Below, in pieces: positions 8,076-36,235 of a DNA stretch of 64,000 bases. The stretch is from Ruegeria sp. HKCCA6707 (GTDB lineage: Bacteria; Pseudomonadota; Alphaproteobacteria; Rhodobacterales; Rhodobacteraceae). The notes under the pieces were generated by a model, which was not told the DNA's origin, did not search any database, and saw only the letters and a list, made by a program, of their open reading frames with translations. Numbering within the stretch: position 1 is the first letter of the stretch; the number at the start of each line of letters is the position of its first letter. The translations under genes were made by a program, and so were the position numbers. The stretch is taken from positions 620,001 to 684,000 of the forward strand of contig NZ_WQEG01000001.1 of NCBI RefSeq assembly GCF_013033515.1, read 5' to 3'.

Positions 8076-8107
8076 GCTGTCCCCGTGTTTGTTTTCTTGG
8101 TTGGTAT

Positions 8108-8135: not shown

Positions 8136-8145
8136 CGACAATCAG

Positions 8146-12573: not shown

Positions 12574-14228
12574 AGCGGTTGGGAGTGTATGTCGACTAAA
12601 CTCGGACCGTCCTGGGCAAGGGCCTGTTTCAAAATGCCGTTCAGTTCGGCCGGATCCTGAACCGTCCAGGATTTGACCCCAAAGGCGTTTGCCACAGCCG
12701 CGTGATCGGTCCGGTTGAAATCGACGTTATAGAACCGCTGACCAAACCCCGCATTCTGCCCTGCCTTGATCCATCCAAACACCGCGTTTGAGAAAACGAT
12801 AGAAGTGATCGGCATCCTGTGCCGGACCATAGTTTCAAACTCGCCACAGGCAAAACCGAACGAACCGTCACCCATCACGGCCAGCGTCTTCACCGAGGGT
12901 CGCCCGACATGTGCCCCCATCGCAGCGCCCAGCGAATAGCCCAAAGCCCCATGCGCCCGGTTGGTGATGAAATGTCGCCCTGCCCTGGGCCAGCGGTAAT
13001 GCGCACTGAAATAGGGGCAAGGCGTGCCGGGGTCGGCCACAACAATCGCGTCATCGTCCAAAAGGTCCATCAGCGCGGCCATCACCGCCTCGGGGCGGAT
13101 CGGCGTGTCCCGGCTTGCCGCAAGCGGATTAAAGCCCGCAAGCTTTGCGGCCCAGGCAGCGCTTGCCTTGGCTGCGCCGCCCATGGACGGTAAGTCTTGT
13201 TGCTGCTCAAGCGCATCGGCCAGCGCTTCGAGCGCCAATTTGGCATCTGCGCAAATGGCGACTTCGGTTTGGTAATTGGCTCCGATCACCAGGGGATCGC
13301 TGTCGATGTGAAGGATCGTTGCACCGCGCGCCGGGCTTCGCCAGCGTTCGGTGGTCACAGATCCGGCGCGACATCCGACAAAGACAACAACATCGGCCTG
13401 ATCGATAACCGCTCGGGTCGCCGCGACCCCGCCGTTCGAGCCGACAACACCCAGCGCCAAAGGATCGGTTTCGGCAATCGCCCCCTGCCCGGACACCGTT
13501 GTTGCGACGGGCGCATCCAACAGTTTGGCCACCCGCGACAGGGCCGCTGTCGCACCCGACAAAACCGGCCCGCCCCCGCAGACGAAAACGGCAGAGTTCG
13601 CCTGCGCCAGAACCTTTGCCGCTGCTTCGATGGCATCCGGGTCGGGACCTACGCGTTCCGCCGGGAAGGACCGATGGCGGTCATCCGCCCAAATCTCGGC
13701 CTCGTCCACCGGCCCTTTCTGCGTGTCAAAGGGCAGCGCCAAATGGGTGGCACCGGGCGTGCCCGTGGTCATGGCTCGGAACGCTGCCCGCACCATAGCC
13801 GGCAGCCGCGACGGGTCATCGAGCGATGCGTTCCACTTGGTCAACGGCTTGAAGAGCGCTGGCTGATCCAACTCGGTCAGCGGGTATTTCCCCCGGCTTG
13901 TCGTGGCCACATCCGACGTGATCGCCAGTATCGGCACCGAGCTTTCATTGGCCTCGACCACGCCGGGGAGAATATAGGTCGCTCCTCCGCCCGAGGGGCC
14001 TTCGCAAACCCCCGGCTTTCCAGTGACCCGCGCATAGCCATCCGCCATATAGGCCGCATGGCGCTCGTCCCTAGTCAGGATGTGCTGAATGCCATGATCC
14101 ATGAGTGCCAAAGCGTCATAGAACGGCAAGGTCGTGTCGCCGCACAGGCCGAACATATGGCGCACATCATGGGCTTGCAGCATCCGCACCATCGCTTCTG
14201 CACCGGTCAAATGGTTGGTTCCAGTCAT
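12534..14228 (-). CDS. Thiamine diphosphate-dependent enzyme, acetolactate-synthase-like
   Basis: A 564-residue ThDP enzyme with all three domains: pyrimidine-binding (residues 5-175, active glutamate Glu55 in TRDERHAAYMADGYAR), a central Rossmann-like domain (about 200-340) and the PP-binding domain with GDG at 453-455 and a following Asn at about 481. Such proteins decarboxylate 2-oxoacids and may ligate or hydrolyse the product. There is no ilvN-type regulatory subunit, so a catabolic role is likelier than branched-chain synthesis. The start is MTGTNHL, with GGAGGG upstream. The longer frame covers the palindromes at 14263-14285. The substrate is unknown. Confidence 0.8.
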   Translation of the reverse strand: MTGTNHLTGAEAMVRMLQAHDVRHMFGLCGDTTLPFYDALALMDHGIQHILTRDERHAAYMADGYARVTGKPGVCEGPSGGGATYILPGVVEANESSVPILAITSDVATTSRGKYPLTELDQPALFKPLTKWNASLDDPSRLPAMVRAAFRAMTTGTPGATHLALPFDTQKGPVDEAEIWADDRHRSFPAERVGPDPDAIEAAAKVLAQANSAVFVCGGGPVLSGATAALSRVAKLLDAPVATTVSGQGAIAETDPLALGVVGSNGGVAATRAVIDQADVVVFVGCRAGSVTTERWRSPARGATILHIDSDPLVIGANYQTEVAICADAKLALEALADALEQQQDLPSMGGAAKASAAWAAKLAGFNPLAASRDTPIRPEAVMAALMDLLDDDAIVVADPGTPCPYFSAHYRWPRAGRHFITNRAHGALGYSLGAAMGAHVGRPSVKTLAVMGDGSFGFACGEFETMVRHRMPITSIVFSNAVFGWIKAGQNAGFGQRFYNVDFNRTDHAAVANAFGVKSWTVQDPAELNGILKQALAQDGPSLVDIHSQPLHEAAAPVSEWVA

Positions 14229-14262
14229 GGCAAGCACTTCCCTCCAGAATCTGCGCACAGAC

Positions 14263-14285
14263 CTGTATACAGTTTTGTATATTGA
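14263..14285. promoter_or_regulatory. Candidate GntR operator
   Basis: CTGTATACAG (14263-14272) is a perfect 10-bp palindrome, followed by the related TTGTATATTG (14276-14285). TNGTATACNA-like palindromes are common targets of FCD-type GntR regulators. The pair sits in the 109-base gap between the divergent ThDP enzyme and gntR genes. Confidence 0.6.
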
Positions 14286-14337
14286 TTTCAACCGCGCTCT
14301 ATGCCACCTGTTGAACAGCAGATTTCAGGCGGGTTTG

Positions 14338-15036
14338 ATGGCAGGTCCACGGGTCGATGACATTTATGAGCAGGTCAAGGCGATGGCCGTTTCCTTTCGC
14401 CTGCGCCCGGGTGACCGGCTGAACGAGGTTGCGCTGTCCAAAGAGCTCGGCGTCAGCCGTACGCCGTTACGAGAGGCGCTGAACCGCCTTGTGGCAGAAC
14501 GCTTGTTCGATTTCCGCCCCGGCCAGGGTTTCTTTTGCCGCCCGCTGGATGCACAAACCGTGTTCGACCTGTTCGAACTGCGTCGTATCATCGAAACCGC
14601 CGCTGTGCGCAGCGCCTGCGAAAGAGCCTTGGATTCAGATCTGGATGCGTTGAAAACCGAGCTTTACGCAACCGGCATCGACATCACCGGCCTGACGATT
14701 GCCGAGGCGGTCGCGCGCGATGAGGCGTTTCACCTTGGCATTGCCCAACTGACCGGCAATGCAGAATTGGTCGAAACGCTTGACCGGATCAACGAGCGCA
14801 TCCGCTATATCCGTTGGGTATCGATGAGTATGGATCGTGTGCAACGCTCAAAAGACGAACATAAACGCGTGATGCAAGCGTTGATCGCACGCGACGCGGA
14901 CAGCGCTGCTCAGGTGATGGGCGCGCATATCGCCAAACGCATGGATCAGGTGCAAGAAGCCGTGCGGCACGGTATTTCCAGCATTTATATGGATGGGCCC
15001 GAGGGGATCTCGTCCCGGATCATCGAGGACGCATAG
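14338..15036 (+). CDS. GntR family regulator, FCD subgroup
   Basis: A 232-residue regulator. The N-terminal winged helix contains LNEVALSKELGVSRTPLREA (about residues 26-45), the GntR signature with the conserved SRTPLREAL turn. The C-terminal all-helical FCD domain has the expected metal-site pattern, with an acidic/His residue pair in RDEAFHLGIAQ and later histidines (SKDEHKRVMQAL, MGAHIAKRM). The start is the ATG with GGCGGG upstream. It is divergent from the ThDP enzyme, reads into the racemase-like gene, and probably senses a small carboxylate. Confidence 0.88.
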   Translation: MAGPRVDDIYEQVKAMAVSFRLRPGDRLNEVALSKELGVSRTPLREALNRLVAERLFDFRPGQGFFCRPLDAQTVFDLFELRRIIETAAVRSACERALDSDLDALKTELYATGIDITGLTIAEAVARDEAFHLGIAQLTGNAELVETLDRINERIRYIRWVSMSMDRVQRSKDEHKRVMQALIARDADSAAQVMGAHIAKRMDQVQEAVRHGISSIYMDGPEGISSRIIEDA

Positions 15037-15039
15037 ACC

Positions 15040-15765
15040 ATGATCGCAAAAGGCGGCAAATCCATCTATGGCGCGTCGGTTGGTATCTTGATGCTGGACG
15101 CGCAATTCCCCCGTATTCCAGGTGATATGGGCAACGCGTTGACCTGGCCGTTTCCGGTGCTCTACCGCGTCGTGCGGGATGCCACCCCTGATCACGTCGT
15201 GCGCAAGAATGCCGATGGCATGCTGGGCGCCTTTATCGATGCGGCACGTGATCTGGTCAAAGACGGTGCGGACGGGATTACCACCAATTGCGGGTTTCTT
15301 TCGCTGTTTCAGGAGGAACTCGCCGCGGCGCTGCCGGTGCCGGTTGTGACCTCATCTTTGATGCAGGTGGATATGGTGAACAGAACCCTGCCCGCAGCTA
15401 AGCGGGCCGGTATCCTGACCATCTCGGCCTCGACGCTGACACCCGCGCATCTGGCAGGCGCACAGGTCCCTGAAGGCACGCCCATTGGGTCAACGGAACA
15501 TGGGATGGAGTTTACGCGGGCCATTCTGGACAACAAACTCACACTGGATGTCGAAAAAGCGCGGGCAGACAATCTCGAGGCGGCGCTGGCGCTGACGGCA
15601 GACCACCCTGAGATTGGCGCGCTGGTACTGGAGTGCACAAATATGTGCCCCTATGCCGCCGATATTCAACGCGCCACCGGGCTGCCGGTCTATTCGATCG
15701 TCACATTGGTCAACTGGTTTCAGGCCGGTCTGACCCCGCCGCGCTTTGATCTAAGCCACGCTTAG
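15040..15765 (+). CDS. Asp/Glu/hydantoin racemase-family protein
   Basis: A 241-residue protein of the aspartate/glutamate racemase superfamily, which includes cofactor-free racemases, maleate isomerase and arylmalonate decarboxylase. Both possible catalytic cysteines are present: Cys84 in TTNCGF and Cys199 in LECTNM, so a two-base racemase is possible. It begins 3 bases after gntR and is probably co-transcribed with it. The last 4 bases overlap the convergent Tm-1-like gene. The substrate is unknown; the neighbourhood suggests an amino or hydroxy acid. Confidence 0.78.
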   Translation: MIAKGGKSIYGASVGILMLDAQFPRIPGDMGNALTWPFPVLYRVVRDATPDHVVRKNADGMLGAFIDAARDLVKDGADGITTNCGFLSLFQEELAAALPVPVVTSSLMQVDMVNRTLPAAKRAGILTISASTLTPAHLAGAQVPEGTPIGSTEHGMEFTRAILDNKLTLDVEKARADNLEAALALTADHPEIGALVLECTNMCPYAADIQRATGLPVYSIVTLVNWFQAGLTPPRFDLSHA

Positions 15766-16997
15766 GGCTGCGCGACCGCTCCCTGCGCAAGCCACGCGTC
15801 GAACTGTTTCAACGCGGCCTCGGAAAATTCCGGGTCATTAATATGTGCATCCAACTCGATCAGGGTCACATTCGGCGGACAGTTTGCGCGAACCTCCTCT
15901 ATGAACGCGGCTAAACCTGCGGGGTCACTCAGGGGTCCGCCGGGCCGGTCCCATTCGTTGCCGCCCTGGTTTGGCAGGATTAGAGTCGTCGGACCCTTGG
16001 CCTGCAACAGTTTCGCGCAGATTTCGCGCGCCATCTCGCGGCGCTGATCTGCTGTCATCATGACCGAAGACAACAGGCGGTTATGGGCATGTGTCTCTTG
16101 CCCGCGCAGCTTCTGGGGCGTGTCCTGCCAGCCCACGAAATCCACCAGATCATAGCAGCCGATGGACACGATCTGAGGCGTGCCACACAGACCCGCCGCC
16201 GTCATCCGATCCGCCCCGGCCGAGATTGAAGACCCCATCAAATGGTTGCCCACCTCTTGCGGTGCGAAATCCATCACGGCGGCAAAGCGCCCCTCGGATG
16301 CCAGGCTTTCAAACGCACGCCCGCCCATGCCGGTTGCATGAAACACCGCAACCTCGAACCCGCGCTGTTCCAGTGCGGGTTTCAGCGCCACCATATATTT
16401 CAGCACTGTTTTCCCAAAAGACGTCATGCCGATCAGCGGTTTGGCCGCGTCGGGCCGTTCGACCGCGCGCGCCGCGCCAAGCACCGCGCCAGCGGCCTGA
16501 CTGAGAGAGGCTTTGCAGACCGAATTCAAGCCATAAAGCCCGCCCGCCCAAAGGATCATCTGTACATCCGCGGGCAAACGCTCGGGCGGGATCAGCGGTG
16601 AGAAGGACACCGTCGACACGATATATTTCGGCACGCCAACCGGCAGGGCCGAACAGATATCCAGCGCCAGATCGGTGCCCATAGTGCCGCCCAGAACAAG
16701 CGCAGCGTCGACCTTTCCATCAGCCTGCAGCCGGGCCGCCAGTATCGCCCCGCCCTTGGCCATGATCTGCATGGCCGTGTTCTCATCCCCGCTGTCGATC
16801 GCCTCTTGGATGCTGTGGCCCCCGGCTTCGGCCACGTCGTGCTTTGAGATATCGGTCGGCTTTGACGGATCCCCCAGAACGCTCACATCCATTGTCATGA
16901 CCTGACCACCCTGCCCCCGAATGGTATCGGCAAGGTAATTCAGTTCATCATCTTTGGTGTCATAGGTTCCAACCAGAAGGATGGTTTTGTCCGTCAT
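15762..16997 (-). CDS. Tm-1-like (UPF0261) protein
   Basis: A 411-residue member of the family related to the tomato Tm-1 protein, whose N-terminal half binds ATP in the plant protein. The start MTDKTILLVGTYDTK and the glycine-rich LVLGGTMGTDLALD are the family's nucleotide-binding-like blocks, and GMTSFGKTV opens the second domain. The cellular role of the bacterial proteins is not settled. Here it lies 12 bases downstream of an aldehyde dehydrogenase, so it belongs to the divergent amine locus operon and may act on a small metabolite. Confidence 0.8.
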   Translation of the reverse strand: MTDKTILLVGTYDTKDDELNYLADTIRGQGGQVMTMDVSVLGDPSKPTDISKHDVAEAGGHSIQEAIDSGDENTAMQIMAKGGAILAARLQADGKVDAALVLGGTMGTDLALDICSALPVGVPKYIVSTVSFSPLIPPERLPADVQMILWAGGLYGLNSVCKASLSQAAGAVLGAARAVERPDAAKPLIGMTSFGKTVLKYMVALKPALEQRGFEVAVFHATGMGGRAFESLASEGRFAAVMDFAPQEVGNHLMGSSISAGADRMTAAGLCGTPQIVSIGCYDLVDFVGWQDTPQKLRGQETHAHNRLLSSVMMTADQRREMAREICAKLLQAKGPTTLILPNQGGNEWDRPGGPLSDPAGLAAFIEEVRANCPPNVTLIELDAHINDPEFSEAALKQFDAWLAQGAVAQP

Positions 16998-17009: not shown

Positions 17010-18494
17010 TCAAAGCTTGATCCATGCGGTTTTCAGGTTCAGGTATTTGTCGAACGCATGCAAAGACTTGTCATGCCCATTGCCCGATTGTTTGACGCCG
17101 CCCAGCGGCACGGTGACATCCGCCCCGCCATAGGTGTTCACATGCACCACCCCGGCCTCAATCGCCGCGATCATCCGATGTGCCCGCGACAGGTTTGAGG
17201 TCCAAACCCCTGCGGCCAGCCCTGTCTCTGTGTCGTTGGCCAGCGCGATGGCTTCTTCCTCGGTGTCAAAGACCTGCACTGTAAGAACAGGGCCAAAGAC
17301 CTCTTCGCGCACGATCCGGTCATCAGGTTGCACATCCGTCACGATGGTCGGTGCCATATAGGTGCCGCCGGTTTCTTGCAGGATACGGTTGCCGCCCGTG
17401 GCGATGGTGCGCCCCGCAGCGCGCGCCTCGTCTATGAAAGCAAGGTTCTGCGCCAATTGACGCTCGGAGTTCACAGCACCTGCATTGGTTATAGTGTCCA
17501 GCGGATCACCGACCTGCATCGCTTTGGCCTGCGCCACAAGCTTATCGACAAAGACATCATGGATCTCACGCTGCACCAGCAGGCGCGACCCGGCGATGCA
17601 GACCTGCCCCGAGTTGCGGAAGATACCTGCCGCCGAGATCTTAGCGGCCTCATCCAGATCGGGCGCATCGGCGAAGACAATGTTCGGCGACTTGCCGCCC
17701 AGTTCAAGATAGACCCGCTTGAGGTTCGAACGCGCCGACGCCTCCAGCAACCGTCGCCCCGTGGCCCCGGATCCGGTAAAGACAAGCACATCAACCTCGT
17801 TGGACTCTGCAATTGCCGCTCCGATCACAGCGCCTTCGCCGGTGACCACATTCAGAACCCCCGGCGGCAGGCCTGCCTCCAACGCAAGTTCGGCTAAACG
17901 CAGCAAGGTGAGCGAAGCCGTCTCGGCGGGTTTCAGAACCACCGTGCATCCGGCGGCCAAGGCCGGGCCCAGCTTCCAACTGCCGATCATCATCGGGAAA
18001 TTCCACGGCACGATTGCCCCTACAACGCCAACCGGGTGCTTGTGCACCAGCCCCAGCGCCCCGGGGGCTGTGGGCGCTATCTCGCCAAAGATCTTGTCCG
18101 TGGCCTCGGCGAAATACCGGATCGTTCCCGCTGCGCTGAGCGGTTCGGCCTTATAGGCCATGCCGATCTCGGTGCCGTTGTCGCGCACCCCCAATACGGC
18201 AAGTTCTTCAGCCTGCGCTTCAATCAGATCGGCCCATTTCAAAAGGATTCTCTTACGAGCAGCGGGGGCAAGTCCGGACCAGCGCCCGTCGTCAAACGCC
18301 AACCGGGCCGCCGCAACCGCGCGGTCTGCATCCTCGCGCGTACCTTTCGGCAAGGTCGTCAATGTACTGCCATCTATCGGAGAAATCACCGGCATCGTAC
18401 GGCCATCTGATGCGTCAACGCGCGCACCGTTGATCACATGTTTCGCGTCAGGAACCGGCTGATGGCGAAGGGTGTCGATTCTGGGTTTGTCCAA
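17010..18494 (-). CDS. NAD(P)-dependent aldehyde dehydrogenase
   Basis: A 494-residue aldehyde dehydrogenase oxidising an aldehyde to the acid. The catalytic residues are clear: Glu264 in LELGGKSPN and Cys299 in GQVCIAGSR. The NAD-binding turn FTGSGATG lies at 239-246, and the oxyanion Asn is in PWNFPMM. Among the family it resembles the PuuC/betaine-aldehyde group. It is divergent from the tctCBA-P450 operon across a symmetric regulatory region, and so would oxidise an aldehyde produced in that pathway. Confidence 0.9.
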   Translation of the reverse strand: MDKPRIDTLRHQPVPDAKHVINGARVDASDGRTMPVISPIDGSTLTTLPKGTREDADRAVAAARLAFDDGRWSGLAPAARKRILLKWADLIEAQAEELAVLGVRDNGTEIGMAYKAEPLSAAGTIRYFAEATDKIFGEIAPTAPGALGLVHKHPVGVVGAIVPWNFPMMIGSWKLGPALAAGCTVVLKPAETASLTLLRLAELALEAGLPPGVLNVVTGEGAVIGAAIAESNEVDVLVFTGSGATGRRLLEASARSNLKRVYLELGGKSPNIVFADAPDLDEAAKISAAGIFRNSGQVCIAGSRLLVQREIHDVFVDKLVAQAKAMQVGDPLDTITNAGAVNSERQLAQNLAFIDEARAAGRTIATGGNRILQETGGTYMAPTIVTDVQPDDRIVREEVFGPVLTVQVFDTEEEAIALANDTETGLAAGVWTSNLSRAHRMIAAIEAGVVHVNTYGGADVTVPLGGVKQSGNGHDKSLHAFDKYLNLKTAWIKL

Positions 18495-18507
18495 GTCAGT
18501 CTCGCTA

Positions 18508-18641
18508 GGTTTAAATAATGAACCTTAGGTGGCAAAAAACTTTCCTAGTTTTGGGCCGCTTTTGTCAACAGGGATTTTTTTGTTGACAGGCAAGGATTCC
18601 AAAAACAAAATTATTGATACCTAAGGTTCATATAATAAACC
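18508..18641. promoter_or_regulatory. Nested dyad in the ALDH/TTT divergent promoter region
   Basis: Two 23-base arms (18508-18530 and 18619-18641) are inverted copies, 19 of 23 identical, both containing TGAACCTTAGGT. Between them TGTCAACA (18563-18570) and TGTTGACA (18581-18588) form a second dyad around nearly the same axis (18574.5 against 18575.5). The TTGACA in each inner arm can be a -35 element. TATAAT (18631-18636) lies in the right outer arm, 34 bases before the tctC start. The layout suggests paired operators controlling both directions together. Confidence 0.7.
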
Positions 18642-18670
18642 AACTAAATCTGATCTCGCAGGGAGATGAC

Positions 18671-19609
18671 ATGACCAAAATGACGAAGGCGGTTCTGGCC
18701 GCACTTGCCCTTGGCCTGGCCGGACCGGCGCTGGCTGAGTATCCCGAAAAACCCGTCAGCTTTATCGTCCCGTGGCCTCCGGGCGATCTGGAAGACGTGC
18801 TGACCCGGATGATCGCCGAAGACTTTCAAGCGGAATATGGCGTGCCCGCTGCCGTGGTGAACAAGCCCGGCGGCGGTGGCGGCCCCTTCCCGGGCGCGGT
18901 CGAAGTGGCCACAGCGCCTGCAGATGGCTACACCATCGGCTCGTTTGTACCCGCCGTGTCGCTGATCGGGCATGAGATCGACATCCCCGAGCTGACACCC
19001 GAAAAGTTTGATCCGGTTGGTATCTTCCTGACCTATCCGTTTGTTGTCGCCACATCCGGCAATGCACCCTATTCCAATATGCAGGAACTGGCAGATTACG
19101 CGAAAGAAAACGATGTATTCCTTGGCCATTTCGGCGATGTTCTGACCCCGACACAGGTAACCAAGGCCCTGTCGGCAACTATGGGGTTCGAGTGGGGTGG
19201 TGACGCTGCCTTTGACGCGCTGGATTGCAACACGCTGGCTTCGGGCGATGCGGATGTGATCAACACAACGCTGCAACTCATCCTGCCTTGTCTGGACAGC
19301 GTGAAGGTTCTGGTGTCGATCACAGGCGAGCGGATCAGCAAGGTGCCCGACACGCCTGCAATCGGCGAGGTTGAACCGTCGCTCGACATCTCGCTGTGGA
19401 ACGGTCTCTTTGTCACCAAAGATACGCCAGCCGATGTACGGGAAAAAATTGCCGCGGTTGCCGAGAAGACCGTCAAAAGCGAACGCGCGCAGCAATTGGC
19501 CGCTGAAACCGGTGCCTTGGTCTATTGGCTGAACGCCGACGAAAGCGCAGCAGTGATCGCCGAGGACAAAGCGACACTGGGTACAATCTCGGAAGCGCTG
19601 GGTCAGTAA
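18671..19609 (+). CDS. tctC: TTT transporter solute-binding protein
   Basis: The 312-residue periplasmic binding protein of a tripartite tricarboxylate transporter. A Sec signal peptide spans about residues 1-22 (ending GPALA). The mature protein starts EYPEKPVSFIVPWPPG, the TctC hallmark (YP-x-KP-x-x-x-IVP-x-x-PGG). VNKPGGGGGPFPGAVEVA forms the beta-turn that holds the ligand carboxylate through backbone contacts. The start has GGGAG at good spacing. These proteins bind many carboxylates, so the ligand cannot be named. The family usually shows PGGxxD after the first strand; here it reads PPGDLED. Confidence 0.88.
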   Translation: MTKMTKAVLAALALGLAGPALAEYPEKPVSFIVPWPPGDLEDVLTRMIAEDFQAEYGVPAAVVNKPGGGGGPFPGAVEVATAPADGYTIGSFVPAVSLIGHEIDIPELTPEKFDPVGIFLTYPFVVATSGNAPYSNMQELADYAKENDVFLGHFGDVLTPTQVTKALSATMGFEWGGDAAFDALDCNTLASGDADVINTTLQLILPCLDSVKVLVSITGERISKVPDTPAIGEVEPSLDISLWNGLFVTKDTPADVREKIAAVAEKTVKSERAQQLAAETGALVYWLNADESAAVIAEDKATLGTISEALGQ

Positions 19610-19621
19610 GACCAACGGCCC

Positions 19622-19645
19622 GAGAGGGCGGCGACCCGCCCTCTC
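19622..19645 (+). other. Hairpin between tctC and tctB
   Basis: GAGAGGGCGG and CCGCCCTCTC form a perfect 10-bp stem with a CGAC tetraloop, 12 bases past the tctC stop and 22 bases before tctB. It probably raises binding-protein transcript over the permease mRNA by blocking 3' decay or by partial termination. Confidence 0.7.
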
Positions 19646-19667
19646 TCACTCGACAAGGACCCCCCTG

Positions 19668-20201
19668 ATGGACGATTCCGAGCTTTTGCAGGTCAAGACC
19701 AAGACGTCCGGGCAGGTTGTCTTTGTTGTCGCCGGTCTGGTTCTGACGCTGATCTTGCTGTCGCAGATCACCACACAGACCGAATGGACGGAAAAAGCAC
19801 GCAATATCGGCAGCCAACCCCGCCTGTGGCCAGCGATTGCCCTGATCACAATGCTGGGTGGCTTTGCGATCCATTTCCGGCTGATGCGACGACGCAAGCC
19901 CAACGCACTGGATTGGGGCGAGGCGCGGCGCTGGGCCGAGCCTTTGGAATACCTCCTGTGGTTTCTCGTCTATGTTGCAGCTGTCCCAAGGCTGGGCTTT
20001 CTGCCCATGAGCATCCTCTTCGCCTGCGCGCTGACCTACCGATTGGGCTATCGCTCACGTATGGGGTTGATGATCGCCGCGCTCTTTGCGGTTGCGATGG
20101 TGGTTTTGTTCAAGGGTCTTCTTGGGGTCAACATACCCGGCGCGCAAATCTATGAATTTCTTCCCGCTTCGGTGCGAACCTTCTTTCTGGTGTATCTCTG
20201 A
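19668..20201 (+). CDS. tctB: TTT transporter small membrane subunit
   Basis: A 177-residue TctB-type protein with about four membrane helices (residues 16-36, 47-66, 95-115 and 125-160, the last broken into two). Conservation in this subunit is low, so the call rests on length, helices and position between tctC and tctA. Its stop codon overlaps the tctA start by one base (TGATG). It forms the integral membrane complex with TctA. Confidence 0.82.
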   Translation: MDDSELLQVKTKTSGQVVFVVAGLVLTLILLSQITTQTEWTEKARNIGSQPRLWPAIALITMLGGFAIHFRLMRRRKPNALDWGEARRWAEPLEYLLWFLVYVAAVPRLGFLPMSILFACALTYRLGYRSRMGLMIAALFAVAMVVLFKGLLGVNIPGAQIYEFLPASVRTFFLVYL

Positions 20202-21805
20202 TGGATCTGATCCTGTCCGCCATTGACGTTCTTGCCCGCTGGGACGTGATGCTTGCGCTGCTGGTCGGGGCGGTGGGCGGTGTGGCCATTGGCGCCATTC
20301 CGGGTGTTGGGCCCGCAGTGGCCATCGCCATCCTTTTGCCCGCAACCTTCTCGATGGACCCGATTGTCGGGTTGACGCTGCTGTTGGGGATCTACGGGTC
20401 ATCGATGTATGGCGGATCGATCCCTGCCATTTTGATCAATACACCGGGCACGGCCGTCAACGCGCTGACTACCTATGACGGGTTCCCGATGACACTGCGA
20501 GGGGAAGGCCGACGCGCCTTGTCGCTGGCCTATTCAGCCAGTTTTCTGGGCGGTGTCTTCTCGGTTGTCTGTCTCATTTTTCTGTCCCCTGTTCTGGCCA
20601 AGATCGCCCCGATGTTCGGCTCGCGCGAGATCTTTCTGGCTGCGCTTCTGGGCCTTGTTCTGGTCGTCGTCGCGCACAAGGGACAAATGGCTATCGCCGC
20701 AGCCCTTGCAGGTTTTGGCATCCTGATTGGCACAGTCGGGCTGGAACCTGCGGCCTATACCCGCCGTTTCACTTTCGGTCAAAGCTGGTTGGCTGGAGGA
20801 TTTGACCTGATCGTGGTTGTGCTGGGTCTTTTTGCGCTGTCTCAGGCGTTTTTGCTGCTGACCATGGATGACGAAAAGATCCGCCTGCCGCGTTCACGCG
20901 GATCGCTGTTTCAGGGCTTTCGCGAATTGGCGCGACATCCTCGCGTTGCGGCCATCTCGGCCAGTTTTGGCGTGGTGATGGGGATGATCCCCGGTGTTGG
21001 AGAATTCACCGCGCAGTTCATGTCCTACACCTCGGCCCGCAAACTGTCGAAGAACCCCAAAGCTTTTGGGCATGGCTCCTCTGAAGGTCTGATTTCATCC
21101 GAGACCGCCAACAACGCCGTGCCCGCAGCCGCGATGATCCCGTTGCTGGCCCTTGGCATCCCGGGCGAGGCGCTGACGGCGATGATGCTGTCGGTGTTCT
21201 ACGTGCATAACGTGGTGCCCGGACCAGGGCTGTTCCAGAACGATATGGACTTTGTCGTCGCGCTTTACATCGCGCTTTTGGTTCTGAATGTCATTGTTGT
21301 GGGTTTCCTGCTGGTCTCAACCGGTTGGCTGGTACACCTCACGCGCATCCCGAACCGGTTTTTGGGCATGTGCATCCTGCTTCTCAGCTTTGTTGGCGTC
21401 TATTCCATTCGCAACTCGACCATGGATTGTGTCATCGCGGCGGTGTTCGGATTGATCGGATTTGTCCTGAAACGCCTGAACATGCCCATCGTGCCGATCA
21501 TCCTGGGCATGGTGCTGGGCGGGATCATGGAGGTCAAACTGCGGGCCTCTTTGGCGCGGGTCAAAACGCCGATGGATTTCATCGACCGCCCCATCGCCTT
21601 CCTGCTGTTTTGCGTGATCTTGATCATCATCGGCTCGACCATCTGGCGCGTTTGGCGCGAATGGAAACCGGTTGACCGTCGCAAGCCGCAGAAAAAGGCT
21701 TCGAACGCCTTTGCGAAACGCATCGCTGGCCGGTCGCACCGCCATTTCGAAAACCGCACAAAACAACAAAGACGGAGACGTTTCTATGACCATGTGGGTT
21801 CCTGA
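20201..21805 (+). CDS. tctA: TTT transporter large membrane subunit
   Basis: A 534-residue integral membrane protein with about 12 helices. Two TctA signature repeats are visible: GAIPGVGPAVAIAILLP near residue 32 and GMIPGVGEFTAQFMSY near residue 265, followed by ETANNAVPAAAMIPLLALG. It also carries the GIYGSSMYGGSIPAILINTPG segment. The C-terminus has about 35 extra basic residues (KRIAGRSHRHFENRTKQQ...), and the last 20 bases overlap the P450 gene. It uses the ion gradient to import the ligand delivered by TctC. Confidence 0.93.
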   Translation: MDLILSAIDVLARWDVMLALLVGAVGGVAIGAIPGVGPAVAIAILLPATFSMDPIVGLTLLLGIYGSSMYGGSIPAILINTPGTAVNALTTYDGFPMTLRGEGRRALSLAYSASFLGGVFSVVCLIFLSPVLAKIAPMFGSREIFLAALLGLVLVVVAHKGQMAIAAALAGFGILIGTVGLEPAAYTRRFTFGQSWLAGGFDLIVVVLGLFALSQAFLLLTMDDEKIRLPRSRGSLFQGFRELARHPRVAAISASFGVVMGMIPGVGEFTAQFMSYTSARKLSKNPKAFGHGSSEGLISSETANNAVPAAAMIPLLALGIPGEALTAMMLSVFYVHNVVPGPGLFQNDMDFVVALYIALLVLNVIVVGFLLVSTGWLVHLTRIPNRFLGMCILLLSFVGVYSIRNSTMDCVIAAVFGLIGFVLKRLNMPIVPIILGMVLGGIMEVKLRASLARVKTPMDFIDRPIAFLLFCVILIIIGSTIWRVWREWKPVDRRKPQKKASNAFAKRIAGRSHRHFENRTKQQRRRRFYDHVGS

Positions 21806-23042
21806 CGATGACGGGTTTGCCGATCTCGGCTCGCATGACAGCTTTGCGGGCGGTGCGCCCTACAATACCTTCGCGCGGTTGCGGCAAGAGGCCCCCTGTC
21901 ACTGGTCCGAGTTTGACGGCGGCAAGGGCTACTGGTCGATCACGCGCCACGCCGATATCGACAAGATGATCCGCGACACCGAGACCTTTTCTTCGGCGCG
22001 CGGCATTCGGATGGAGGATCAGACCCATGAGGAATACATGGCCCGCCGCACCTTTCAGGAGACCGACGGGACCGAGCATCGCAAAGTGCGTATGAAAGTA
22101 GCCAAAGCGTTCTCGCCCAAGGTGGTCGCCGGGTTCGAGGAACAGATCCGCGAACTGTGCGGGCCCATTCTGGACAACGCGCTTGAAAAAGGCAGCTTTG
22201 ACGCCACCCGAGACATCGCACGGGAATTGCCGATGCGGATGCTGGGGCAGATCTTGGGCGTCCCGGATGAAGACCTGCCCTGGCTGGTCGACAAGGGCGA
22301 CGCGTTGATGGCCAATTCCGATCCCGATTTCACCCAGCATGTGGTCGACAAGATGGATACGGATGCGTTCCGGCTGATGCCCTTCAACTCACCAGCTGGG
22401 GCTGAGCTTTACGACTATTCTCGCGCCTTGATGGACAAGAAGAACGCCACAGGGGACACAAGCGGCATCCTGCATCTGATCCTGCAGCCCGATGAAAATG
22501 GTGAGACGATCTCGGACACAGAGTTCCGCAATTTCTTTTGCCTTCTGGTGGCCGCGGGCAATGATACAACACGCTACTCCATCGCGGCAGGCATTCAGGC
22601 GCTGGCGCGGCAGGACGGGTTGCTGGAGGAATTGCACGCTGGCGAGGTTTGGGGCACCGCTGCGGATGAAATCGTCCGCTGGGCTTCACCCGCCACCTAT
22701 TTCCGCCGCACCGCGATGAAGGATGTCGAGGTGCATGGCCAGCAGATCAAGGAAGGTGACAAGGTGCTCTATTGGTTCATTTCCGCCAACCGGGATGAGA
22801 CAATGTTTGAAGACCCCTATCGCCTGACCCTGTCGCGCAAGCCCAACCGACAGCTGGGATGGGGTCAGGGTGGCCCGCATGTCTGCCTGGGCATGCATCT
22901 GGCCCGGCTTGAGGTGCGAGTGCTGTTTCAGGAACTGGTCAAGCGCATCAAAACCATCGAACCGGATGGGCCCGAGGCCTTTGTCCGCTCGAACTTCGTA
23001 AACGGCATCAAGCGGATGCCCGTTCGCGTCACTTTGCAATAG
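21786..23042 (+). CDS. Cytochrome P450
   Basis: A 418-residue soluble bacterial P450. The heme loop is WGQGGPHVCLG with Cys367 as the iron ligand. It is one residue longer than the common FGxGxHxCxG, and the first Phe is Trp. The I-helix oxygen-activation motif AAGNDTT lies at 256-262 and the K-helix ExxR at Glu295-Arg298. The start is MTMWVPDD, with GGAG nine bases upstream, inside the end of tctA. No ferredoxin or reductase gene is nearby, so electrons must come from elsewhere. Its place beside a gamma-glutamyl ligase suggests oxidation (N-dealkylation or hydroxylation) of an amine or its glutamyl amide. Confidence 0.93.
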   Translation: MTMWVPDDDGFADLGSHDSFAGGAPYNTFARLRQEAPCHWSEFDGGKGYWSITRHADIDKMIRDTETFSSARGIRMEDQTHEEYMARRTFQETDGTEHRKVRMKVAKAFSPKVVAGFEEQIRELCGPILDNALEKGSFDATRDIARELPMRMLGQILGVPDEDLPWLVDKGDALMANSDPDFTQHVVDKMDTDAFRLMPFNSPAGAELYDYSRALMDKKNATGDTSGILHLILQPDENGETISDTEFRNFFCLLVAAGNDTTRYSIAAGIQALARQDGLLEELHAGEVWGTAADEIVRWASPATYFRRTAMKDVEVHGQQIKEGDKVLYWFISANRDETMFEDPYRLTLSRKPNRQLGWGQGGPHVCLGMHLARLEVRVLFQELVKRIKTIEPDGPEAFVRSNFVNGIKRMPVRVTLQ

Positions 23043-23049
23043 GAAGCCA

Positions 23050-24342
23050 ATGTCGAACCGTTTACGCGCCCTGTTCATTGACCACCTTTCGATCCCGCGT
23101 GGCAAATACCTGCCCGCCAGCAAGATCGGCGATGGCTCGACCCGGTTTGCCCGCGCAACGTTTGGCGTGCATTACGACCGCGATCTCTTGCTGGACGCAC
23201 CGCACGCCATGGTGCGCGAAGGCGCGCCGGATATGGAACTGCGCTGGCGTGGCGAGGACGTCCGCCAAGGGTGGGAGCCCAATACGTCGATTGTTTTGGG
23301 CGATCTCTATGATGCGGATGGCAGCCCCCTGCCGCTGTGTCCTCGCGGGGCACTGAAACGCGCGATCGCTGATTGGGAAAAGCACGGGCTCAAACCGAAG
23401 CTGGGGATCGAGTTGGAGGCCTATGCCCTGCAAGGGGGCGAAGATGGACGGTTACGGCCCTATGACACACCGGGGGGCGTGGTCTATGGCACCGGCCCCT
23501 TTACCGATCCGATGCGGATCAACGACGTGATCTGGAACAAGGCGCTTGAGATGGGGTTCAAGCTGGACCTGATCACCGCAGAATACGACAGCCCCCAGTT
23601 CGAATACACACTGACCTTTGACGACGCTCTGAAAGCAGTGGATGATATCGTCTTGTTCCGCCAGATGGCGCGCGAAGTGGCTTTGGACCACGGGATCGTT
23701 CTGACCTTCCTGCCCAAACCTCTGTCCGAGATGGGCGGATCGGGCATGCATATCAACTTCTCGTTTAAGGATGCAGACGGGCAGAACGCCTTGGCGTCTG
23801 GCGAGTTCGGCGGCCCCGATCACCTGAACGATCTGTCTCGCGGCTGTCTGGCCGGGCTTGTGCATCACCACGAAGGTCTGGCGGGTCTTCTGGCCCCGAC
23901 GGCTGGATCCTACCGTCGCCTACAGCCATCATCGCTGTCGGGCTATTGGAAGAACTGGGGCGGCGATCATCGGGGCGTGACCACGCGCGTCTCGGGCGAA
24001 GGCGGGGCCAAGGCGCGCCTGGAACACCGCATGGCGGATGCCAGCGCCAACCCCTATACCGCCGCCGCTGCCGTTCTTCAGGCCGCGCGGCTGGGGTTTG
24101 AGGCCAAGATGACCCTGCCCCCGATCGAGACCGGCGACGGGTTCGACACGGTGGATGCCCGCACCGGCACCGCGCCGAACCTGCGCAAGGCCATACAGGA
24201 CCTGACAGCCGACACCGCTCTGGTCGATGCGGTCGGGCGCGCATTGGTTGAAAATCATGCCTTCATGAAAGAGCGCGAATTCCGTAAGACGCGCGAGCTG
24301 GAGCCTGACGCTCTGCTGGATTTCTATGTGTGGTTTGTCTGA
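23050..24342 (+). CDS. Glutamine synthetase-like gamma-glutamyl-amine ligase
   Basis: A 430-residue class I glutamine-synthetase-fold enzyme that probably joins glutamate to an amine using ATP. Metal and nucleotide residues are kept: GIELEAYAL (about residue 118), AEYDSPQFEYT (about 177), GSGMHINFSF, and the C-terminal RLEHRMADASANPYTAAA. It lacks the adenylylation-site region of GlnA and is shorter, like PuuA, IpuC or the aniline-ligase group. It starts 7 bases after the P450 and is followed immediately by a class I amidotransferase, a pairing known from polyamine and aniline catabolism. The amine is unknown. Confidence 0.85.
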   Translation: MSNRLRALFIDHLSIPRGKYLPASKIGDGSTRFARATFGVHYDRDLLLDAPHAMVREGAPDMELRWRGEDVRQGWEPNTSIVLGDLYDADGSPLPLCPRGALKRAIADWEKHGLKPKLGIELEAYALQGGEDGRLRPYDTPGGVVYGTGPFTDPMRINDVIWNKALEMGFKLDLITAEYDSPQFEYTLTFDDALKAVDDIVLFRQMAREVALDHGIVLTFLPKPLSEMGGSGMHINFSFKDADGQNALASGEFGGPDHLNDLSRGCLAGLVHHHEGLAGLLAPTAGSYRRLQPSSLSGYWKNWGGDHRGVTTRVSGEGGAKARLEHRMADASANPYTAAAAVLQAARLGFEAKMTLPPIETGDGFDTVDARTGTAPNLRKAIQDLTADTALVDAVGRALVENHAFMKEREFRKTRELEPDALLDFYVWFV

Positions 24343-24343
24343 G

Positions 24344-25054
24344 ATGCGATTAGCCTGCCTTGTCACCAACACCGATGACAGCGCCTTTGCCAAAGCGCGC
24401 CCCTTGGATGACGCGAAATTCGCGGACCTGATCCACGGGGTTAGGCCCAACTGGCAGGTGACCGCGTTCTGGGTCTGCCGGAATGAGTTTCCGGAAGACA
24501 TAAACCAGTTCGATGGCGTTATGATCACAGGCAGCCCGGCCTCGGTCACCGAAGACTTGCCTTGGATGCAGAAGCTTTCGGAATTAATCACGGACATTAT
24601 CACACGCGGCATACCGCTTTTTGGCGCCTGTTTTGGGCATCAGATTATTGCGAAGGCTCTGGGCGCGCCGATTGTGCGCAATCCCGAGGGCTGGGCGCAT
24701 GGGCGGATCGAGACCCGCCGCGTGGCGCGGGCACCGTGGTCGGGGAATGGCGATGTCTTGCAGCTTTATGGCTCGCATATCGAACAGGTGGGAGCGTTGC
24801 CCGACGGCGCGCAGCGCCTGTTTGAAAGCCCCGGTTGTCCGATCGCAGGGTATGCCATAGGCCATGCTGTGTTCACGGTGCAGCATCACCCGGAAATGAC
24901 ACAAGGCTTCATCTCCGATCTGGTTGACGAATACGCCGACTATGTCGGTGAAACCGTCACACAGACCGCGCGCGCCTCGGTGCAGGCCGGACCCGCCGAC
25001 CGCGCGCTGTTTGCGGAAGAAATCGCCGCTTTCTTCGAGATGGAGGGACGCTGA
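24344..25054 (+). CDS. Class I glutamine amidotransferase-like hydrolase
   Basis: A 236-residue GATase class I domain protein. The nucleophile is Cys96 in FGACFGHQ, and His182 and Glu184 (HHPEM) complete the triad. It stands alone without a synthase domain, so it is probably a gamma-glutamyl amide hydrolase rather than an ammonia donor, as proposed for stand-alone amidotransferase partners of aniline-type ligases. The start at MRLACL lies one base after the ligase stop; an ATG six codons earlier overlaps the ligase and cannot be excluded. Confidence 0.83.
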   Translation: MRLACLVTNTDDSAFAKARPLDDAKFADLIHGVRPNWQVTAFWVCRNEFPEDINQFDGVMITGSPASVTEDLPWMQKLSELITDIITRGIPLFGACFGHQIIAKALGAPIVRNPEGWAHGRIETRRVARAPWSGNGDVLQLYGSHIEQVGALPDGAQRLFESPGCPIAGYAIGHAVFTVQHHPEMTQGFISDLVDEYADYVGETVTQTARASVQAGPADRALFAEEIAAFFEMEGR

Positions 25055-25867
25055 ATGGGCACGATCACCAAAGCGCTGGATTTGCTGGGCTTTTTTGCCC
25101 GCGACCGGGCCGAGATCGGCCTGGGAGAATTTGTGCGCCTGACCGGTCGGGACAAGGCAACGGTGCATCGTCATCTGACCGAACTGGCCGAGAACGGGTT
25201 TCTGGAACAGCATCCCGAAACCCGCGCCTATCGCCTGGGCCCGGCCCTGCTGCGCCTTTCCGCGCTGCGCGAGACGCTGTTTCCGGTGCGAAAGCTGTTG
25301 CAACCGATCGTATTTGATCTGTCGGAAGCGGTGGGAGAGCTGGCCCATGCCAGCCTCTTGCAGGGCGAGGTGCTGTCACCGGTTATTCATGCCGACCCCA
25401 GCCTGCACGGTGTTCTGGTCCATTTCGATATTGCCGAGATGTTGCCCTTGCACGCAACCTCATCGGGCATCGCCGCGCTGGCCTTTTGCGCCGAAGACAC
25501 GCGGGCCAAGGTGCTGACGCGACCTTTGTCGAAATTCACCGACCAGACCATCTCGGATCCTGCTGCACTGAAGGCCAAGATCGAGCAGGTGCAGAGATTT
25601 GGCGTTGTGTCCGTGAGCGGCACGTTTGACGAAGGCGTCACCTCGGTCGGTGCGCCGGTGTTCGGCGAAGGCGAACGGGTTGTGGGCTCTTTGGCAGTCG
25701 CGGTACCCACCGTGCGCGCCAATCCCGAAAAGCTGCGCGACATCGCACAAAGACTTCTGGTCGAGGCCTCGCATGCCTCAACCGCGCTGGGCGGCGTTTT
25801 CCCGCGCAGCTTCGACACTCTGCCGCCCGATTGGGGCGACAAAACTCTGGCACAACAGGTGATCTGA
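25055..25867 (+). CDS. IclR family transcriptional regulator
   Basis: A 270-residue regulator. The N-terminal winged helix is at about residues 1-65 (FVRLTGRDKATVHRHLTELAENGFLEQ), and the C-terminal IclR effector domain runs from about residue 85 (QPIVFDLSEAVGELAHASLL) to 255. Its start codon follows the amidotransferase stop without a gap and its stop overlaps the aminotransferase start (TGATG), so it is embedded in the operon. It is a good candidate to bind the paired dyads at 18508-18641. Confidence 0.9.
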   Translation: MGTITKALDLLGFFARDRAEIGLGEFVRLTGRDKATVHRHLTELAENGFLEQHPETRAYRLGPALLRLSALRETLFPVRKLLQPIVFDLSEAVGELAHASLLQGEVLSPVIHADPSLHGVLVHFDIAEMLPLHATSSGIAALAFCAEDTRAKVLTRPLSKFTDQTISDPAALKAKIEQVQRFGVVSVSGTFDEGVTSVGAPVFGEGERVVGSLAVAVPTVRANPEKLRDIAQRLLVEASHASTALGGVFPRSFDTLPPDWGDKTLAQQVI

Positions 25868-27219
25868 TGAAGGACAGCAACTTTCTGAAAGAAAACAACG
25901 CGCGCCACCTGTGGCACCCGATGGCACATCCGGCTGACAGCCTGAATAATCCGCCTGACATCATCGTCGGGGGCGAAGGGGTGACGATCACGGATGTGGA
26001 CGGGCACAGTGTTGTTGACGGGGTTGGCGGGCTCTGGAACGTGAACCTGGGCTATTCCTGCCAGCCGGTGAAGGATGCCATCACCGCTCAGTTGAACCGC
26101 CTGCCCTATTACTCGATCTTTCGCGGCACCACCAATGATCTGGTCATCGAACTCAGTTGGATGCTGCGCGAGTTTTTCGCACCCGATGGCTTGTCGCGCG
26201 CCTTTTTCACCTCGGGCGGATCCGATGGGGTGGAAATCGCGCTGCGTCTGGCGCGCCAATATCACAAGATCCGAGGGGACGCGGGACGGGTCAAGTTCCT
26301 GAGCCTCAAGAAAGGCTATCACGGGACTCATACGCTGGGGGCATCAGTGAACGGAAACCCCAATTTCCGCACACAATATGAACCGCTCATGCCCGGCTGC
26401 CACCACATTCCGGCACCGTACCCCTATCGCAATCCGTTCAACGAAAGTGATCCCGAAAAGCTGGCACAGCTGTGTCTGGCCGCGCTTGAAGACGAGATCA
26501 AGTTCCAAGACCCCTCGACCATCGCCGCGATGATCATGGAGCCTGTTCTGGGTGCAGGTGGCGTGATCCCGCCGCATGAAAGCTTTATGCCCGGCGTGCG
26601 CGAGATCTGTTCGAAACACGGGATCCTTTTGGTCGCGGATGAGGTGATCACAGCCTATGGCCGCACTGGCGCATGGAGCGGGTCGCGGCGATTTGGTGTA
26701 AAGCCCGATATGGCCGTGACTGCCAAAGCGATCACCAACGGCTATTTTCCGTTTGGCGCTGTGATGATCAGCGATGAGATCTCGGAAACGTTCGAAAAGG
26801 ACACATCCGGCAAAGCAGCGATTGGATCAGGTTATACCTATTCCGGCCATCCTGTGGGGGCTGCGGCGGCGATTGCCTGTTTGCAGGAAACCGAACGGCT
26901 GAACGTCAAGGACAACGCAGCCGCGCGCGGCCAGCAATTGTTCGAAGGGCTGCAAGACCTGGCCAAAACCTACGACACCATAGGCGATGTGCGCGGTGGC
27001 TATGGCTTGATGTGCGCGCTCGAGCTGGTCTCTGACCGCGCAGCCAAAACGCCAATAGACAAGGCCACCATCGGCAAGGTCCAAAAGACGGCATATGCCG
27101 CCGGTGCAATGGTGCGCGTATCAGGCAACAACATCATCCTGTCCCCGCCCCTGATCCTGAGCAGCGGGGATGTGGACACGATTGTCTCGGCCTTGGATGC
27201 GGGGTTCAAATCGATCTGA
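25867..27219 (+). CDS. Class III (omega) aminotransferase
   Basis: A 450-residue PLP aminotransferase of the omega-amino acid:pyruvate/GABA type. Lys287 in TAKAITNGYFP binds PLP, Asp258 (LVADEVI) holds the pyridine nitrogen, and GSDGVEIALRLAR contacts the phosphate. Overall it resembles beta-alanine/taurine:pyruvate aminotransferases. Its start overlaps the iclR stop by one base. It may remove an amino group from the amine substrate or from an omega-amino acid formed after aldehyde oxidation. A bidirectional hairpin follows. Confidence 0.9.
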   Translation: MKDSNFLKENNARHLWHPMAHPADSLNNPPDIIVGGEGVTITDVDGHSVVDGVGGLWNVNLGYSCQPVKDAITAQLNRLPYYSIFRGTTNDLVIELSWMLREFFAPDGLSRAFFTSGGSDGVEIALRLARQYHKIRGDAGRVKFLSLKKGYHGTHTLGASVNGNPNFRTQYEPLMPGCHHIPAPYPYRNPFNESDPEKLAQLCLAALEDEIKFQDPSTIAAMIMEPVLGAGGVIPPHESFMPGVREICSKHGILLVADEVITAYGRTGAWSGSRRFGVKPDMAVTAKAITNGYFPFGAVMISDEISETFEKDTSGKAAIGSGYTYSGHPVGAAAAIACLQETERLNVKDNAAARGQQLFEGLQDLAKTYDTIGDVRGGYGLMCALELVSDRAAKTPIDKATIGKVQKTAYAAGAMVRVSGNNIILSPPLILSSGDVDTIVSALDAGFKSI

Positions 27220-33227: not shown

Positions 33228-33334
33228 CATATCCCCCAACTGGCACCCTAAGCACACATAACGTTTCTTTTTATCTCAGCAGGTGAAACCGTTACACATT
33301 TGATCGCTGAAATTTAGAAACAAACCCGCCTGAA

Positions 33335-34502: not shown

Positions 34503-34702
34503 TGCCGCGCACCAGCCTCCAAGGTCAGGCAAAATACGCAAGGCCCATCTCAAGCATCACGCAAGTTTGCCTGTCTCCATTCCTCCCGAACCCCGGACGG
34601 CCAAACATAAGGCGCGACGGGTACCCGTGCTGGCAGGTTAGTCCAGTTATCCTGACCGAGCAATGATGGGGTGAGTTGGGCCCATTTCGCTGCCCCCAAG
34701 GC

Positions 34703-36231: not shown

Positions 36232-36235
36232 CGCG

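Follow-up and report, generated by a model that had tools for sequence, protein, structure and literature searches.

A cytochrome P450, ligase and amidotransferase operon of Ruegeria with a probable role in feeding aromatic amines into homoprotocatechuate catabolism

In a 64,000-nucleotide stretch of the genome of Ruegeria sp. HKCCA6707 (hereafter the window; C1:620001-684000 of the 4.54-Mb, 30-contig genome G000), we analysed an operon at 17010-27219 in which a cytochrome P450 gene is packed together with genes for a glutamine-synthetase-like ligase and a class I amidotransferase. Sequence comparisons suggest that this operon probably directs gamma-glutamyl arylethylamine catabolism that feeds the homoprotocatechuate (Hpa) pathway, with tyramine or a close relative as the most likely substrate and 3,4-dihydroxyphenylacetate as the most likely product. 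Four things were computed: the genes themselves, their co-conservation in related genomes, their association with hpa and decarboxylase genes, both statistical and physical, and an hpa operon in the same genome.

All of the genes named in a preliminary description of this DNA were found to be present, open and supported by Pfam, at exactly the coordinates it gave, and the Pfam matches listed below for the operon and aldehyde dehydrogenase (ALDH) proteins all exceed gathering scores. The ALDH gene lies on the minus strand, and the genes for a tripartite tricarboxylate transporter (TTT), the P450, the ligase, the amidotransferase, an IclR regulator and an aminotransferase form a tightly packed operon on the plus strand.

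15762-16997, minus strand: UPF0261 (Tm-1-like) protein, function not known (Pfam UPF0261 and UPF0261_C), 12 nt behind the ALDH gene
17010-18494, minus strand: ALDH, proposed to convert an arylacetaldehyde to the arylacetate (Pfam Aldedh, 548 bits)
18671-19609, plus strand: TctC, periplasmic binding protein of the TTT importer (Pfam TctC, 70 bits)
19668-20201, plus strand: TctB, small membrane subunit (Pfam TctB, 58 bits)
20201-21805, plus strand: TctA, large membrane subunit (Pfam TctA, 432 bits)
21786-23042, plus strand: cytochrome P450, proposed oxygenase of the gamma-glutamyl amide (Pfam p450, 71 bits)
23050-24342, plus strand: glutamine-synthetase-like ligase, predicted to form gamma-glutamylamides (Pfam Gln-synt_C, 218 bits)
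24326-25054, plus strand: class I amidotransferase, proposed gamma-glutamyl hydrolase (Pfam GATase, 69 bits)
25055-25867, plus strand: IclR-family regulator (Pfam IclR_C, 79 bits, and HTH_IclR)
25867-27219, plus strand: class III aminotransferase of the PRK07481 subfamily, proposed to convert the released amine to the aldehyde (Pfam Aminotran_3, 289 bits)

The P450 gene starts at ATG 21786 and shares 20 nt with the TctA gene, which ends at 21805; 7 nt separate it from the ligase gene, so that the translational packing of the P450 between importer and ligase, as previously described, was confirmed. The ligase and amidotransferase genes overlap by 17 nt, or are 1 nt apart if a second start is used; the gap between the amidotransferase and IclR genes is 0, and the IclR and aminotransferase genes overlap by 1 nt. 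The TctC start (ATG 18671) was picked by a codon model in an open frame that begins at 18614. The translations contain GGPHVCLG, which we take to carry the P450 haem cysteine, and AGNDTT in the P450, GACFGHQ and HHPE in the amidotransferase, GQVCIAG in ALDH and TAKAITNG in the aminotransferase, which are presumably the motifs expected of these families. In searches with NCBIfam models the aminotransferase matched NF005683 (707 bits, cut-off 575), the top model for ALDH was PuuC (540 bits, under its cut-off of 850), and the nearest named model for the regulator was PcaR/PcaU, also under the cut-off. The IclR gene inside the operon, the UPF0261 gene, two promoter palindromes and the link to Hpa and decarboxylase genes are additions to the preliminary description.

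The co-conservation of the genes was evaluated in a sample of 295 genomes of the family, representing 294 genera, with presence thresholds of E 1e-70 for the ligase and E 1e-100 for the P450. The ligase was found in 58 genomes and the P450 in 57, and 56 genomes (the core genomes) had both, leaving two with the ligase alone and one with the P450 alone. In 54 of the 56 the P450 gene was directly upstream of the ligase gene on the same strand, with a median gap of 23.5 nt; the pairing thus exceeds chance, and of the 58 genomes with a ligase all but two also carry the P450. The exceptions are G069 and G087, with a ligase and no P450 at E 1e-100, G166, with a P450 fragment at a contig end and no ligase, and G113 and G145, in which both genes are present and are not adjacent in the usual order. 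In the last two genomes (loci L084 of G113, and L082 and L083 of G145), a P450 of the window type (65-68%) accompanies a ligase of a distant type (50-52%), and an exchange of partners is possible. The Mantel correlation between ligase and P450 distances was 0.83 (70 pairs; 0 of 999 permutations), much of which shared ancestry alone would give.

Close relatives of the locus were those of Ruegeria, with 92-94% ligase identity, and other Rhodobacterales. Of 22 loci from named genomes, 19 carry a P450 of nearly full length next to the ligase; L028 is truncated by a contig end and L024 has no P450 there. In Ruegeria profundi (L011) two short P450 pieces only (9766-9990) remain between TctA and an intact ligase, and the amidotransferase match covers 69%; this appears to be a natural loss of the P450 step.

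Gene content was compared across 53 core stretches, defined as the fetched stretches with both P450 and ligase (52 relatives plus the window). The amidotransferase was found in 51 of these, TctC in 30, the aminotransferase and IclR in 27 each, ALDH (at 60% identity or more) in 20 and UPF0261 in 12. Because the amidotransferase is present in 51 of 53 stretches and the other genes in 12-30, we distinguish a core of ligase, P450 and amidotransferase from a second module (transporter, aminotransferase, ALDH and UPF0261) that accompanies this core in roughly half of the stretches. The gene order takes two forms: the co-directional one of the window, and one in which the amidotransferase gene is divergent from a P450-ligase-ferredoxin array.

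The core was found to be strongly associated with Hpa genes. HpaE, used as the marker of Hpa meta-cleavage, was present in 54 of the 56 core genomes (all except G155 and G181) and in 50 of the 239 others (Fisher p=2.5e-27), and an aromatic-amino-acid decarboxylase (E 1e-100) was present in 52/56 and 86/239, respectively (p=1e-15). In contrast, HpaB, the 4-hydroxyphenylacetate 3-hydroxylase, was found in 7/56 core genomes and 22/239 others (p=0.46). The association is also physical: when a limit of 20 kb is applied, the P450 gene has HpaE as a neighbour in 12 of the 54 genomes that contain the two, the decarboxylase in 11 of 52 and at least one of these genes in 18 of 56, compared with about 1% expected by chance placement in a 4-Mb genome. 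HpaE and the decarboxylase are themselves no more than 8 kb apart in 22 of the 50 core genomes that have both, and are neighbours in at least 16 non-core genomes, a lower bound because gene places were typed completely in core genomes and partly in the others.

The cluster is directly followed by hpa genes in L011-L015 and L027, which are Ruegeria loci. Among the genes at this position in the loci of Ruegeria and its relatives, HpaE, HpaD (of two unrelated types) and HpaH score above their NCBIfam cut-offs, HpaF passes the Pfam CHMI (isomerase) model and a group II decarboxylase is also present; HpaI (340 of 369) and HpaG (158 of 276) fall under their cut-offs. In the genome of the window, the hpa genes are away from the operon, on contig C29, in the order HpaR-F-E-D-decarboxylase-G-H-I, with identities to Ruegeria queries of 69, 73, 89, 88, 83, 84, 75 and 62%, respectively; no PF03241 match for HpaB was obtained in this genome at E 0.001. 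Several other neighbourhoods were recorded. The core stands beside a decarboxylase, HpaI and a FAD hydroxylase of the PRK08132 kind in L053, L057, L058, L064 and L068, and a fumarylacetoacetase-like gene is also present in the first four of these, all of these families being named from the L064 members only. In L033 (Ruegeria sp. TM1040 megaplasmid, 6181-8895), where the P450, ligase and amidotransferase genes are TM1040_RS04075, RS04070 and RS04080, the other flank of the core is occupied by the paaABCD phenylacetyl-CoA epoxidase genes of another aromatic pathway.

The decarboxylase of the window's genome (C29:10471-11862) belongs to group II, and its best PDB relative is 7xin, deposited as a DOPA decarboxylase (363 bits). 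It has the catalytic-loop tyrosine, also present in the decarboxylase of genome G330 described below, which we take as the sign of a decarboxylase that forms amines and not of an aldehyde synthase. One Pseudomonas putida decarboxylase of this kind is reportedly highly specific for L-DOPA.

The aminotransferase gives a further connection. Relatives at 70% identity or more were found in 43 of the 56 core genomes, and also in 31 of the 50 HpaE-positive non-core genomes compared with 11 of the 189 genomes that have neither (p=5e-17); in nine genomes without the core, the gene is within 15 kb of HpaE. Because it tracks and adjoins HpaE in genomes without the core, the aminotransferase may serve an amine-to-Hpa route even where ligase and P450 are missing, most simply by converting dopamine or tyramine to the aldehyde. 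It would follow that the core adds one upstream amine-to-amine conversion, in which the amine reacts as its glutamyl conjugate and the glutamyl group is taken off afterwards.

The combination extends beyond the family. In a class-wide sample of 210 genomes (of which the window's own genome and two more belong to the family; P450 threshold E 1e-80), the P450 was found in five: the window's own genome, G330, G457, G410 and G367. In G330 and G457, which represent one genus of another family, genes for an HpaE-like protein, a LigB dioxygenase (HpaD-like), an HpaG-like protein, a decarboxylase, the P450, the ligase and a ferredoxin are arrayed on one strand, with an acetoacetate-decarboxylase-family gene between the HpaG-like and decarboxylase genes in G330, the annotated one of the two. 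No window-type amidotransferase or aminotransferase was found within about 8-10 kb of these arrays. G410 has the full window-type set together with hpaD, hpaG and hpaH, and in G367 the P450 is at a contig end with its neighbour beyond the sequence. Plasmids of Novosphingobium EMRT-2 and Streptomyces canus carry a P450/ligase pair beside HpaD-, HpaE- and HpaG-like genes, with identities to the window P450 and ligase of 56 and 49% for Novosphingobium and 40 and 34% for S. canus. In S. lunaelactis a related ligase was found with similar ring-cleavage genes, and no P450 was present in the stretch shown.

The sole Pfam match of the ligase is the generic Gln-synt_C, and its scores against specific models are far under their cut-offs: 140.7 bits for GlnA (TIGR00653, cut-off 429), 180 bits for GlnT (TIGR03105, cut-off 470) and 168.9 bits for PuuA (NF045547, cut-off 650). 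The metal- and glutamate-binding residues align with those of the standard GlnA-like protein encoded elsewhere in the same genome, whereas in an ungapped alignment with that protein the flap glutamate is replaced by Leu. We take this residue to be Glu327, which presumably deprotonates ammonium in glutamine synthetase. This position also differs in IpuC, the ligase of the isopropylamine (Ipu) pathway, and in two paralogues of the window's genome, and the column of Asp50, presumably the ammonium-site aspartate of glutamine synthetase, was placed differently by two alignments. Because of the Leu in the flap and the low scores against GlnA, GlnT and PuuA, the protein fits a gamma-glutamyl-amine ligase rather than a glutamine synthetase. 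The earlier proposal of a gamma-glutamyl-amine route with the P450 as oxidising step is thus strengthened, in so far as it can be judged from co-conservation and from a ligase unlike these three enzymes. We discarded the idea that a conserved Trp close to the flap marks an aromatic pocket, since the invariant Trp303 is also Trp in five of six other glutamine-synthetase-like proteins aligned.

The top PDB relatives of the P450 are a CYP125 ancestor, CYP124 and CYP125. The loop before its C helix is highly charged, with R75, E77, D78, Q79, E82, E83 and R87 among the residues conserved in 97% or more of 71 orthologues, and would suit a zwitterionic conjugate over a lipid. The best PDB relatives of the amidotransferase are chains of gamma-glutamyl peptidase 1 (9k7i).

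We infer the following for the reactions, the substrate, the order of steps and the cargo of the TTT importer, which the preliminary description proposed to be a carboxylated amine. The amine would be supplied by uptake or by an aromatic-amino-acid decarboxylase, and the ligase would couple it to the gamma-carboxyl group of glutamate with ATP. The P450 would then oxygenate this conjugate, the simplest site being ring position 3 (which would turn gamma-glutamyl-tyramine into gamma-glutamyl-dopamine), after which the amidotransferase would take off the glutamate, the aminotransferase would form the arylacetaldehyde and ALDH would yield 3,4-dihydroxyphenylacetate, the ring of which would be cleaved by the Hpa enzymes, encoded on C29 in this genome. 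The preliminary description had placed aldehyde oxidation before transamination; the order should be reversed, as transamination gives the aldehyde that is then oxidised. Where HpaB is absent, the P450 step would most simply convert tyramine to dopamine, and we tentatively assign the P450 this role as a hydroxylase acting on the conjugate. A slightly more speculative version is masked-amine catechol synthesis, in which the P450 would be a tyramine 3-hydroxylase that accepts the gamma-glutamyl conjugate only and replaces HpaBC in most core genomes, with the dopamine transaminated into the Hpa pathway. The blocked amine would keep the catechol amine from cyclising to aminochromes.

A number of observations weigh against this route or against parts of it. 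HpaB is missing in 47 of the 54 core genomes with HpaE, and likewise in 42 of the 50 HpaE genomes without the core; because so many genomes of the family are without HpaB, whether or not they have the core, its absence is weak support for the P450 role. Furthermore, the P450 need not be a 3-hydroxylase, because seven core genomes possess HpaB, and in G410 HpaB and a flavin reductase share a cluster with the P450. The idea that the P450 simply replaces HpaBC is weakened by this co-occurrence in G410 and by the rarity of HpaB in the family. In G330 the decarboxylase next to the P450 resembles 7xin far more strongly (730 bits) than does the enzyme of the window's genome, and as a DOPA-type decarboxylase it would supply dopamine, already a catechol. 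In 38 of the 56 core genomes, no HpaE or decarboxylase gene is found at a distance of 20 kb or less from the P450. NCBIfam cut-offs are not reached by the hpa-like genes of G330, G457, Novosphingobium and Streptomyces, and the ring substrate may therefore differ there from that of Hpa. A 2Fe-2S ferredoxin gene is adjacent in 24 of the 53 core stretches and none is beside the window operon, which holds no dedicated ferredoxin and reductase; the best ferredoxin relative in its genome is 42% identical, at C1:459982. The sampled genomes are also related to each other, so that the Fisher values overstate independence.

Some of these observations would suit a different P450 reaction on the conjugate in a pathway of the same class, either para-hydroxylation of phenethylamine to tyramine or demethylation of an O-methylated amine such as 3-methoxytyramine to dopamine. 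In G410 the HpaBC beside the P450 could hydroxylate ring position 3 without it, HpaB is present in 7/56 core genomes, and P450s both demethylate and hydroxylate aromatics. Such a reaction is nevertheless rather unlikely, as 49 of the 56 core genomes are without HpaB and hence have no known 3-hydroxylase for 4-hydroxyphenylacetate, and O-methylated amines would be an unusual marine substrate.

An alkylamine pathway of the Ipu type, in which the P450 would hydroxylate the alkyl group of a gamma-glutamyl-alkylamide of the isopropylamine type and the amidotransferase would free an amino alcohol, is improbable. The operon encodes the same trio of activities as the Ipu clusters, and the class III aminotransferase and ALDH could handle an aldehyde derived from the amino alcohol. 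However, identities are only 29% to IpuC, 26% to the Ipu P450 and 24% over 164 residues to the amidotransferase AAur_pTC10062 (no match was obtained between the window amidotransferase and AAur_pTC10065), the operon is without an alcohol dehydrogenase, and the pathway predicts no association with HpaE, yet HpaE is in 54/56 core genomes. We place at the same low level the explanation that the P450 hydroxylates the carbon adjoining the amide nitrogen, so that the conjugate splits to an arylacetaldehyde and glutamine and the P450 itself deaminates. This would account for the G330 and G457 arrays, given the null result for the two window-type genes around them, but would make superfluous the amidotransferase and the aminotransferase, found in 51/53 and 27/53 core stretches. 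That the ligase makes glutamine and the P450 is unrelated, with the genes together by chance or for nitrogen scavenging, accords with the generic Pfam match and is very improbable indeed given the P450-ligase adjacency in 54/56, the replaced flap glutamate and the standard GlnA-like gene elsewhere in the genome.

The divergent promoter region between ALDH and TctC (18495-18670) was found to contain two 17-bp palindromes, both of the form GGTTYAWWWWWTRAACC, which are probably operators of the IclR protein.

18508-18524, no strand: palindrome GGTTTAAATAATGAACC, proposed IclR operator 1 (17 bp, ALDH/TctC divergent promoter)
18583-18611, plus strand: sigma-70-like promoter TTGACA-17-CAAAAT (consensus match only; 4 in the region compared with 3.4 expected)
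18625-18641, no strand: palindrome GGTTCATATAATAAACC, proposed IclR operator 2 (17 bp, ALDH/TctC divergent promoter)

Of 44 loci, 24 have the palindrome ahead of the TctC gene (23 of 41 when three contigs fetched twice are removed), compared with 1 of 1720 shuffled regions. The shared 13-bp promoter arms were absent from the hpa region of the window's genome (L108), where the sequence of the hpaR-hpaF gap differs, so that one operator common to the core operon and these hpa genes is unsupported.

Elsewhere in the window, a separate-looking set upstream (12534-15765), which adjoins UPF0261, consists of a thiamine-diphosphate enzyme (minus strand) and a GntR/FCD regulator and an Asp/Glu-racemase-family protein (plus strand); this set was not found with the core in the mapped relatives. 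Two more fumarylacetoacetate-hydrolase-family genes, at 38014-38697 and 46466-47314 (28 and 36% identity to HpaG, respectively), have as neighbours a molybdopterin oxidoreductase (40292-42613) and an IF-2B-family gene (43738-44841). At 33483-37259, ExbB/ExbD/TonB-like genes lie beside a radical-SAM gene and a gene for a 679-aa protein (31218-33257, minus strand) that gave no Pfam match.

If the proposed arylethylamine route is correct, gamma-glutamyl protection and P450 oxygenation, the theme of Ipu, would be joined to homoprotocatechuate cleavage for aromatic biogenic amines. The route would be present in about a fifth of the sampled family (56/295) and would reach other alphaproteobacteria and streptomycetes. 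It would also assign a role to a ligase family that has no name and to a P450 family whose closest relatives of solved structure carry annotations as lipid and sterol hydroxylases, and gamma-glutamyl-tyramine and gamma-glutamyl-dopamine would be predicted as intracellular intermediates in marine bacteria.

Four known systems can be compared with the operon. In the aniline pathway, a glutamine-synthetase-like ligase and an amidotransferase act on an aromatic amine by way of gamma-glutamylanilide; from this general description the operon is alike in these two activities and differs in having a P450 where that pathway has a Rieske dioxygenase. The 3,4-dihydroxyphenylacetate catabolon of Pseudomonas putida U is said to convert tyramine and dopamine to 3,4-dihydroxyphenylacetate for Hpa meta-cleavage, as proposed here for aromatic biogenic amines. 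It reportedly differs in beginning with an amine oxidase and a dehydrogenase and in hydroxylating the acid with HpaBC, with no ligase, P450 or gamma-glutamyl step. Tyramine is respired by Phaeobacter inhibens DSM 17395 and not by P. gallaeciensis CIP 105210T (PMC4148982).

The gamma-glutamyl-polyamine pathways (Puu, Pau and GlnA3) use the same set of a glutamine-synthetase-like ligase, a class I amidotransferase-type hydrolase and a PuuC-like ALDH (see PMC8394153). Of the polyamine (puuA-like) comparison made in the preliminary description, the ligase-amidotransferase pairing stood and the identity with PuuA did not, the ligase scoring 169 bits against a cut-off of 650; those pathways are not known to include a P450 or hpa genes.

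The closest parallel is the isopropylamine (Ipu) pathway, which is described for Arthrobacter TC1 and Pseudomonas KIE171 and combines a P450 system with a gamma-glutamylamide synthetase and an amidotransferase that acts on glutamine (PMC6776027). The preliminary description had held that no described pathway has this combination, a statement that this source contradicts. On plasmid pTC1 of Paenarthrobacter aurescens TC1 the ligase, P450 and amidotransferase genes are side by side, and the two systems share the encoding of the trio together, an ATP-dependent gamma-glutamylamide synthetase, P450 oxygenation of a gamma-glutamyl amide and hydrolysis of the amidotransferase type. Ipu differs in having an adjacent ferredoxin and reductase, an amino-acid permease and an alaninol gene set, whereas the window operon has a TTT importer, an aminotransferase, an IclR regulator and the hpa link. 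Orthology was rejected, as the proteins are 24-29% identical and the Novosphingobium and S. canus pairs are closer; judging from these comparisons, the operon would work like Ipu and is not a member of it by descent. A search of the open-licence PMC literature, which misses most subscription papers, found no described gamma-glutamyl-tyramine or gamma-glutamyl-dopamine pathway and no P450-ligase-hpa pathway. The logic of ligase, P450 and amidotransferase is thus already known from Ipu, but the enzymes and the destination differ, and the probable class of substrate appears to be new.

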